From Gemmatimonas sp. (lineage in GTDB: Bacteria; Gemmatimonadota; Gemmatimonadetes; Gemmatimonadales; Gemmatimonadaceae), in contig NZ_JAPZSK010000010.1 of NCBI RefSeq assembly GCF_027531815.1, forward strand, positions 124,001 through 188,000: 64,000 bases of DNA, given 5' to 3'. This document shows, one piece after another, positions 30,127 to 43,400 of the stretch. Under the pieces are notes generated by a model that was given only the letters and a program-made list of their open reading frames with translations, searched no databases and had not been told where the DNA came from. Position 1 is the stretch's first letter; the number at the start of each line of letters is the position of its first letter. The position numbers and the translations under genes were made by a program.

Positions 30127-30133
30127 GCTGTAG

Positions 30134-30488
30134 TGGAGGTGAGGGGAATCGAACCCCTGTCCGAGACTAGATCGACCCCAGCTTCTACGTGCGTATTCCA
30201 TTGATTGAGGTCTCCCTCGGCTGGCCAATGGAAAGCCCACCTCAGGACAAGTCTTCTAGAGTTTTGCCTGCCGACGGAAGACGCACCAACAGGCTAGCCC
30301 AGATTTGCGATACTCACGTGCCGCCCCGGGCGGGCTGCCGCGTGAGCACTGCTACGTAACCCGAAGGTTAGGCAGCGAGCGCGAGGTTGTTGTTCGCGAT
30401 TGTGGTTTTCCCGAGTGTTTTACCAGGTGCTCGAGTACCTGGGCACGCTACCAGAGCTTCACCAACCCCGTCGAAGCCAGTCACCCCC
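30134..30488 (-). ncRNA. ssrA: Transfer-messenger RNA (tmRNA)
   Basis: About 355 nt. The 5' end GGGGGTGACTGGCTTCGACG and 3' end with T-arm GGTTCGATTCC and encoded CCA form the tRNA-like acceptor (GGGGGTG pairs with CACCTCC). The mRNA-like part reads GCG AAC AAC AAC CTC GCG CTC GCT GCC TAA, stop at 30368-30370, giving the tag ANNNLALAA with the proteolysis signal ALAA. The conserved ATC just before the GCG resume codon resembles the usual TAGTC context. It rescues stalled ribosomes with SmpB (gene not in the window). 5' end assigned from acceptor pairing. Confidence 0.97.
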
Positions 30489-41187: not shown

Positions 41188-42516
41188 CTACCGAGCCAAT
41201 GGATGCACCTGCAACCGTTCCATGGCGTCTCCGACCGTGTGGAAAGACCCCGTCACCAGTACCGTGGCCGCCTCGGAGCGGGCATGGGCAAGCGCCTGGC
41301 CGAAATCATCGATGCGTTCGATCGGCAATCCTTCGGCGACCGCCCACTGCTCCACCTCGAGGAGGTCCCACAGACGATTCGGCGGCGACGTGGGCGCAAT
41401 CGTGACCACGATCCGCTCAGCGGCACGGGCGACGGCCCGGATGATCCCGCGCCAGTCCTTGTCGCGCAGGACGCAGACCACAGCGGTCATTGGACGCGGC
41501 ATACCTACGGCAAGCAGGTTCTCCACCACGGTGGCCGCACCGTCGGCATTGTGCGCCACGTCGAAGAGCCACGGCGATGCTTGATGAAAGCGCCCCGCGA
41601 GCCGTACCCCCGGCAGTAGGTCGGCCGCCCGCGCCTCCACCTCCGCCCATCGACCACCCGCCCCCCGCAGCATCGCAAGCGCCGCGGCGGCATTGTGCGC
41701 CTGGAACTGTCCCACCAGGGGGGTCGTGAGACGCCGGCTCTGCCCCTCCGCATGGAGAGTGAAGGTCGTGCCCTGCGCATGCACGCGCACATCCTCGACC
41801 TGCCACTCGCGACCCGTCACCAGAATGGGTGCGGCACCGGAGGCTTCGGCGTGCCGCTGCAGCACCGATCGGATCTCGGGCGAGGTATCGCCGACGACCG
41901 CGACCGCCGACCGCTTGTAGATCCCTGCCTTCTCGCCGGCAATGGCTTCCAGCGAATCACCAAGATACTCCATGTGGTCGAAACCGATCTGCGTGACACC
42001 GGCGGCAAGCGGTTGGACGACGTTCGTGGCGTCGAGTCTCCCCCCCAATCCCACCTCCACGACAGCGACCTCGACCCGCTGTTCCGCGAAATGGCTGAGG
42101 GCCATTGCGGTGGTGGCCTCGAAGAAGGTCGCCCCGAGGTCGCTCAGCAGCGGCTCCCATCGCGTCAACCACGCCGTGATCGCGTCGTGGCTCATGGGCG
42201 CGCCGTTCACGACAATTCGCTCGGAGAAGTCCACCAGGTGCGGCGAGGTGTAGCGTCCCACGCGCATTCCGGCCCCGCGCAACAGGGCATCAAGCGTGGC
42301 AACGGTACTCCCCTTCCCATTCGTGCCCGCCACATGAAAGACCGGATAGGCGACGTGTGGGTTGCCGAGCGCCGACAGCAAGGCGCTCACGCGCTCCAAC
42401 CCCAGGCGCCACGCCCCCCCCGTGCGCGCGAAAAGGCGACGGAGGGCCTCATGATAGGCGTCGTCGCGGGCGTCCGGCGGGAGTGCCGTAACCGGTCGTG
42501 GGGTCCGAGGGTCCAG
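41188..42516 (-). CDS. folC: Folylpolyglutamate/dihydrofolate synthase, non-standard start
   Basis: Mur-ligase-like enzyme adding glutamate to folates. The P-loop is GTNGKGST, then TSPHLVDFSERI and a C-terminal domain with FDVAHNADGA. The first standard start is TTG at 42399, yet the family N-terminus (DAYHEALRRLFARTGGAWRL) is encoded in the same frame upstream, to about 42462. The frame is open to a TGA at 42520-42522 with no ATG, GTG or TTG. The only near-standard codon is CTG at 42516, 14 bases after the accD stop, giving 442 aa. CTG start is inferred. Confidence 0.88.
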   Translation of the reverse strand: MDPRTPRPVTALPPDARDDAYHEALRRLFARTGGAWRLGLERVSALLSALGNPHVAYPVFHVAGTNGKGSTVATLDALLRGAGMRVGRYTSPHLVDFSERIVVNGAPMSHDAITAWLTRWEPLLSDLGATFFEATTAMALSHFAEQRVEVAVVEVGLGGRLDATNVVQPLAAGVTQIGFDHMEYLGDSLEAIAGEKAGIYKRSAVAVVGDTSPEIRSVLQRHAEASGAAPILVTGREWQVEDVRVHAQGTTFTLHAEGQSRRLTTPLVGQFQAHNAAAALAMLRGAGGRWAEVEARAADLLPGVRLAGRFHQASPWLFDVAHNADGAATVVENLLAVGMPRPMTAVVCVLRDKDWRGIIRAVARAAERIVVTIAPTSPPNRLWDLLEVEQWAVAEGLPIERIDDFGQALAHARSEAATVLVTGSFHTVGDAMERLQVHPLAR

Positions 42517-42530
42517 CGGTCAGCTCGCGG

Positions 42531-43400
42531 TCAGCTTTCCTGCTGGTCGTGTCCGGCAGCGGCCGGACGCCCAGTCATGTGACGCAGGAGGCGCGAAAGC
42601 GTACCCCGCATCACCTTGCGATGCACGACCCGATCGACCATGCCTTTTTCGAGGAGGAACTCAGCGGTCTGGAACCCCTCCGGCAAGTCCTGCCCGAGTG
42701 TCTGTTTGATGACCCGTGGCCCGGCAAAGCCGATGACGGCCCCTGGTTCGGCGAGGATGGCGTCGCCGAGCATGGCATAACTGGCGCTCACGCCGCCGGT
42801 GGTCGGGTTCGTCAGCACCGAAATGTACGGGATGCGGCGTTCTGCCAGCTGGGAGAGCACCGCAGACGCCTTCGCCATTTGCATGAGCGACAGGATGCCT
42901 TCCTGCATTCGTGCGCCACCGGACTGTGACACGATGACGAGCGGATGTTTCTTCTCGAGCGAACGCTGGCCGAGGCGGGCGATCTTCTCGCCTACGACCG
43001 ACCCCATGGAGCCACCCATGAAGGCGAAGTCCATGATACCGATACCCACAGGCATCCCCTCCAGCTGGCCCGTGACGGTGAGGATGGCGTCGGTGTCCCC
43101 GGCATTGGCGAGCGCGCGCTTGAGACGGCTTGGATAATCGGGGAAGCCGAGCGGATCCACCGAGCGGAGTTCTCCGCCCACTTCGTTGAGTGTCCCGTCG
43201 TCGATCAGCGCACCCGCGTAGTCCCAGGCGCGCATACGGCGGTGAAAATCGCACGCCGGACACACGTTGAGGTTGCGCAGGAACTTGTCACGGATATCCG
43301 TGTGCCCGCAGGCCTCGCACTTCTCCCACGTATCCCGCGGGATCTCGAGGCGCTCGCGACTCGCCTGTCGGGGCTTCTTTTCCTTCCGGAACCAGGCCAT
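42531..43400 (-). CDS. accD: Acetyl-CoA carboxylase carboxyltransferase beta subunit
   Basis: 289 aa. Zinc ribbon Cys28, Cys31, Cys47, Cys50 (CEACG, CPAC), then the crotonase-like carboxyltransferase domain with QSGGARMQEG and NPTTGGVSASYAMLGD. Works with AccA (not in window) to make malonyl-CoA. The ATG chosen gives the family N-terminus MAWFRKEKKP. The open frame upstream runs into rodA and is not coding. The accD-folC order is common in bacteria. Confidence 0.96.
   Translation of the reverse strand: MAWFRKEKKPRQASRERLEIPRDTWEKCEACGHTDIRDKFLRNLNVCPACDFHRRMRAWDYAGALIDDGTLNEVGGELRSVDPLGFPDYPSRLKRALANAGDTDAILTVTGQLEGMPVGIGIMDFAFMGGSMGSVVGEKIARLGQRSLEKKHPLVIVSQSGGARMQEGILSLMQMAKASAVLSQLAERRIPYISVLTNPTTGGVSASYAMLGDAILAEPGAVIGFAGPRVIKQTLGQDLPEGFQTAEFLLEKGMVDRVVHRKVMRGTLSRLLRHMTGRPAAAGHDQQES

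Follow-up and report, generated by a model that had tools for sequence, protein, structure and literature searches.

A probable non-canonical CTG start of folC next to the accD stop codon in a Gemmatimonas genome

Introduction

At which codon does translation of folC begin if its reading frame contains no standard start codon ahead of the conserved part of the protein? This question is raised by the junction of accD and folC on contig C10 (317 kb) of a 4.3 Mb draft genome of Gemmatimonas sp. The junction lies within the window analysed here, a stretch of 64,000 nucleotides, which also carries a tmRNA gene (30133-30488, minus strand, tag ANNNLALAA, found by ARAGORN). The initial annotation of the window had offered two explanations, a rare CTG start coupled to the termination of accD or an error in the sequence. 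Here, we re-read the junction, compare it with the corresponding loci of relatives and weigh these and several further explanations.

Results

The junction comprises the following features, all on the minus strand.

42531-43400, minus strand: accD, acetyl-CoA carboxylase carboxyltransferase beta subunit (TIGR00515 equivalog, 363.4 bits, cut-off 317.45)
43400 and 42533-42531, minus strand: ends of accD, start ATG at 43400 and stop TGA at 42533-42531, read from the sequence
42531-42534, minus strand: CTGA overlapping the accD stop, with its CTG in the folC frame; many relatives could start here, but the in-frame TGA closes it in this genome
42520-42522, minus strand: TGA bounding the folC frame on its upstream side; the clade's six other species have GGA or CGC here
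42514-42516, minus strand: CTG, the most likely folC start
41188-42516, minus strand: folC, dihydrofolate synthase/folylpolyglutamate synthase, 442 amino acids if counted from CTG 42516 (TIGR01499, Pfam, 1o5z)
42490-42513, minus strand: eight codons, DPRTPRPV, directly 3' of the CTG, with a 3/0/15 substitution pattern that indicates constraint at the protein level

The two genes are read in different frames. In the folC frame TGA 42522-42520 is followed by CCG and by CTG 42516-42514, which is located 14 nt past the accD stop and 3 nt past the in-frame TGA. Re-reading confirmed the coordinates given in the initial annotation, i.e. the folC frame contains no ATG, GTG or TTG between TGA 42522 and TTG 42399-42397, the first standard start codon, which is followed by GTG 42390. 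When all codons from 42516 to 42399 were scanned for ATG, GTG, TTG, CTG, ATT, ATC, ATA and ACG, only CTG 42516, ACG 42489, ACG 42423, CTG 42405 and TTG 42399 were found; as claimed before, no NTG codon other than CTG 42516 precedes the conserved FolC N-terminus. The CTGA over the accD stop is present, but a frame opened there is closed four codons on by TGA 42522, leaving CTG 42516 as the sole NTG. Further downstream, within folC, the minus strand has a run of eight G (42414-42421); in the sister genome, G005, an A interrupts this run.

The identity of the product is clear. The protein translated from CTG 42516 scores above the cut-off of TIGR01499 (337.5 bits, cut-off 162.65), contains the GTNGKGS motif and the Pfam domains Mur_ligase_M and Mur_ligase_C, and its closest FolC relatives among named records come from metagenome-assembled genomes of Gemmatimonas sp. 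(93% and 79% identity). The best match among solved FolC structures is that of Thermotoga maritima (1o5z, E 4.8e-62), whose alignment starts at residue 20 of the protein as read from the CTG. As the alignments to the other FolC structures begin at residue 37 or later, and the match to TIGR01499 at residue 40, 1o5z is the only one of these references that informs on the disputed N-terminal segment. The conserved N-terminus, which had been traced back to about 42462, starts one codon later, with AYHEALRRLF at 42459.

In order to locate the onset of translation we used substitution patterns among relatives. A folC match was obtained in 60 of 61 relatives' genomes searched, and near-full-length folC was recovered from 26 of the 30 genomes of the genus; the remaining four gave a match of 21 residues (one genome), weak matches elsewhere (two) or nothing (one). 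Codons are numbered backward from the first glycine of GTNGKG, so that CTG 42516 is codon -63 and TTG 42399 codon -24, and changes at codon positions 1/2/3 were counted by parsimony on a FastTree tree of the folC body. Clade A consists of seven species (loci L002-L008; this genome is L002); its counts are small, and as the species are related, with L005-L007 nearly identical on the tree, they reflect few independent events.

Codons -44 to -24 (42459-42397) show 5/2/41 changes in the seven clade A species, the pattern of a translated sequence, and thus TTG 42399 comes too late to be the start. A FolC beginning at TTG 42399 or GTG 42390, lacking the conserved N-terminal segment, is what a gene finder limited to ATG, GTG and TTG would call, TTG 42399 being the first standard in-frame codon. 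This is very improbable in view of the strong constraint upstream of it and of the T. maritima FolC, which aligns across that region; only G005, of the six other clade A species, shares the TTG. We reject this start, and the observation that the conserved N-terminus precedes TTG 42399 holds. The same stretch bears on a reading with a start at ATG 42452, outside the folC frame, and entry into that frame by a -1 shift within the run of eight G (42421-42414), or with a base missing from that run. Both the ATG and the run exist in the sequence, but in G005 the ATG is replaced by CAC GAG and the unbroken run by GGA GGG, and the folC frame upstream of the run already shows a coding pattern. This frameshift is extremely unlikely and was rejected on these grounds.

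Upstream of the conserved N-terminus the pattern changes twice. The linker, codons -54 to -45, is loose in clade A (12/11/15), whereas codons -62 to -55 (DPRAPRTV) changed almost exclusively at third positions (3/0/15; p 1.9e-5 in a binomial test against one third). The CTG at -63 is invariant in all seven species (0/0/0); none of the 29 invariant-leucine columns of the folC body is CTG throughout in the same seven species. Codon -64 has 1/0/0 changes, and codons -68 to -65 have no codon pattern (7/6/5). An onset of the coding pattern at an invariant CTG is the trace that would be expected of a start codon. Initiation at another non-standard codon, e.g. ACG 42489, is very unlikely: this ACG does lie in the folC frame, but past the constrained DPRTPRPV and within the variable linker, and it is not conserved in the clade, for which reasons it was rejected. 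It should be noted that, according to the cited part of PMC12725619, the 5' ends of bacterial genes have unusual mutation rates that can mislead tests for selection.

Is the absence of a standard start peculiar to this genome? In 6 of the 26 Gemmatimonas folC loci (L002, L005-L008 and L024) there is no ATG, GTG or TTG between the upstream stop and codon -43, and the genomes concerned come from separate assemblies, one of them a single-contig genome (G028). Thus, a merely local sequence error does not account for the finding, and of the two explanations offered initially the error is unlikely as a whole explanation, five further genomes being alike, although it could explain TGA 42522. The initial annotation had named relatives with an ATG or GTG at this place as a refutation. 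This applies only in part: the other 20 of the 26 loci do have a standard codon (ATG, GTG or TTG) upstream of the domain, but mostly at scattered positions: ATG at -48 in L014, L017, L020 and L022 (ATC in L013), GTG at -50 in L010, ATG at -68 in L015 and TTG at -68 in its sister L021. The exceptions within clade A, GTG at -55 in L003 and ATG at -52 in L004, lie at the end of the constrained stretch or after it. At the leucine homologous to CTG 42516, 21 Gemmatimonas loci have CTG (16), TTG (2) or CTC (3; L010, L012 and L018), and none has ATG or GTG; the codon of L018 was read by eye, and L023-L027, being without the N-terminal motif, are outside the 21. CTC is hardly a start codon, so that L010, L012 and L018 would start elsewhere. 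Coding-like codons following a conserved CTG were found in clade A, while outside it the leucine codon is CTC in 3 of the 21 Gemmatimonas loci.

Some further features of these junctions were recorded. A motif P-L-(A/D/S)-P is found near the folC start in most Gemmatimonas looked at and in the g30 genomes L192 and L196, whereas the g30 genomes L195 and L198 differ there. The accD-folC junction of L024 is of the Gemmatimonas kind. Locus L053 (CALQGY020000012.1), from a record named Candidatus Kuenenia stuttgartiensis, has a folC 71% identical to that of this genome; the record is probably a misnamed bin.

In the relatives folC starts at, near or just inside the end of accD, and its frame extends into accD without a stop in most of those from Gemmatimonas. 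A -1 frameshift near the accD stop could then yield an AccD-FolC fusion; in this genome TGA 42522 would end the product four codons past the shift, which makes a fusion extremely unlikely here and led us to reject it. The same TGA is the subject of a more serious alternative, namely that it is a sequencing or assembly error and that the true start is the CTG of CTGA 42534-42531, as is possibly the case in relatives. Indeed, the sister genome G005 has GGA at this position, and a stop a few codons upstream of the leucine is unique to this genome among the 21 Gemmatimonas that have the N-terminal motif. Moreover, the four codons preceding the leucine are codon-like in clade B (4/1/9, p 0.017; 4/1/10 if L009 is included), so that species of clade B may start at the upstream CTGA, and CTG 42516 may have arisen late, as a replacement; for clade B and L009 the CTGA over the accD stop may be the better start candidate, as far as these counts tell. 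Yet the lack of a pattern at codons -68 to -65, after the CTGA, in clade A fits a start downstream of it. We consider an erroneous TGA unlikely, though worth keeping in mind.

In the wider family a standard start is the rule. Outside the genus (50-58% identity), 57 of 60 named loci have one between codons -75 and -42, commonly GTG at -50 inside the end of accD; the three that lack it are L061 (Roseisolibacter), L064 and L074, with a CTGA overlap in L061 and L074 and none in L064. The junction of L064 contains three copies of a stretch around the accD end (GGACGTCGCC and then GTGA or CTGA) and also an in-frame TGA; this repeat is either a duplication or an assembly fault. In further genomes of the family, codons -80 to -42 contain no standard start at 8 of 42 junctions, each of which has a CTG in the folC frame over the accD stop; L216 and L222 among these 8 duplicate L061 and L074, and part of the other 34 also duplicate named loci. 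For a joint count nine of 152 loci, in which the accD end or GTNGKG was not recognised (L015, L027, L047, L055, L062, L080, L083, L219 and L225), were dropped and identical junctions merged, resulting in 110 junctions; the dropped L219 likewise lacks a standard start over codons -80 to -42 and, by eye, has a CTGA. In the merged set 14 junctions lack a standard start; this genome is one of the 13 among them with a CTGA in the folC frame, L064 being the exception; apart from this genome, CTGA is present and open in 12 of 13. Of the g30 genomes looked at, four (L192, L195, L196 and L198) lack a standard start, and each of them has a CTGA at -65, which would suit a true start at the CTGA and an erroneous TGA 42522. 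In L192 compared with L196 the stretch after the CTGA looks coding (codons -61 to -53, 1/0/5), while the other pairs of these four genomes gave no clear coding pattern there. Nevertheless, an in-frame CTGA is about as common beside standard starts (80/96, versus 13/14 without one, Fisher p 0.69) and thus by itself proves nothing. The CTGA is widespread background, which could become usable as a start once a standard codon has been lost.

Finally, contig C10 (317 kb) was screened against 1.2 Mb of G028, i.e. part of each genome, for long codon-like stretches preceding any standard start in both. A looser first pass had flagged 157 of 352 ORFs, several of which, on the plus strand, are taken as antisense shadows of other genes (e.g. 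27 codons, 0/0/17). Once ORFs overlapped by more than half by a better-scoring ORF had been dropped, 226 non-overlapping, third-position-dominated ORF pairs remained, of which 5 were flagged. Among the 226 pairs folC alone had a long stretch (40 codons, 6/6/23); the four other flagged pairs had 5 or 6 codons each, the next best being 6 codons with 2/2/5.

Discussion

Taken together, our analysis suggests that the start of folC in this genome is non-canonical and most likely CTG 42516, with probable coupling to the termination of accD, a reading to which we assign a probability of roughly 0.6. The first of the two explanations in the initial annotation is thus supported, the CTG being invariant in seven species at the very onset of the coding pattern. 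Ribosomes terminating on accD would probably re-initiate at CTG 42516, whose position also suits re-initiation after a four-codon, CTG-started frame ending at TGA 42522; in several relatives, the CTG in the CTGA over the accD stop would be the likeliest start candidate left. We infer both that the CTG is read by initiator tRNA and that translation is coupled. Pairing of the Shine-Dalgarno type before CTG 42516 is weak (-2.2 kcal/mol; at the CTGA it is -3.4 in L003 and L005-L008 and -4.0 in L004), and an AGGA lies 21 nt before the CTG, which would make coupling likelier than free initiation. According to the cited part of PMC12548453, no spacing of neighbouring genes is commoner than the NTGA stop-start overlap, and coupling works best at short distance; for the six gene pairs tested in the cited portion of PMC10666635 it had nearly disappeared once the distance reached about 20 nt.

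CUG is a poor start codon in Escherichia coli. The section of PMC9845219 concerned reports that CUG reporter activity was not detected there, and in the part of PMC11497404 referred to here neither of the tested forms of the initiator tRNA initiates efficiently on CUG in E. coli. The 60 non-ATG database starts in the cited portion of an N-terminomics study (PMC13245402) comprise 50 GTG and 10 TTG. Thus, the yield of FolC may be low, or other features of initiation in Gemmatimonas may help.

One may speculate, although we regard this as very improbable, that Gemmatimonadaceae have kept and selected CUG as a weak folC start, coupled via CUGA to accD. If so, FolC output would depend on how much accD is translated and on how stringent initiation is. 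As FolC supplies folates that are needed for formylating the initiator tRNA, the folC CUG could then form a feedback loop comparable to the infC AUU start.

Gene finders restricted to ATG, GTG and TTG would trim the conserved FolC N-terminus here, and a CTG start backed by substitutions in several species is an uncommon kind of evidence for CUG at a housekeeping gene. Cultured Gemmatimonas species would allow the CTG start to be tested. Among the matches listed by a literature search drawn mostly from outside the subscription journals, none dealt with this folC case.

How does this locus compare with known systems? As in the annotated bacterial CUG starts, which in the cited part of PMC9845219 number 20 ORFs (0.024%) in 69 model genomes, folC has CTG in place of ATG, GTG or TTG; unlike them, it is a housekeeping gene, lies beside an upstream stop and is backed by substitution patterns from seven species. 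The arrangement also resembles NTGA overlap coupling as described in the cited parts of PMC12548453 and PMC10666635, since folC adjoins or overlaps the accD stop and CTGA is found in the folC frame of many relatives, but N is C, the overlap start of this genome is closed, and the likely start is located 14 nt downstream. The product itself belongs to the same enzyme family as FolC from T. maritima (1o5z) and E. coli (1w78): 1o5z aligns over the disputed N-terminal segment and leaves the first 19 residues from CTG 42516 unmatched, whereas 1w78 aligns only from residue 37.
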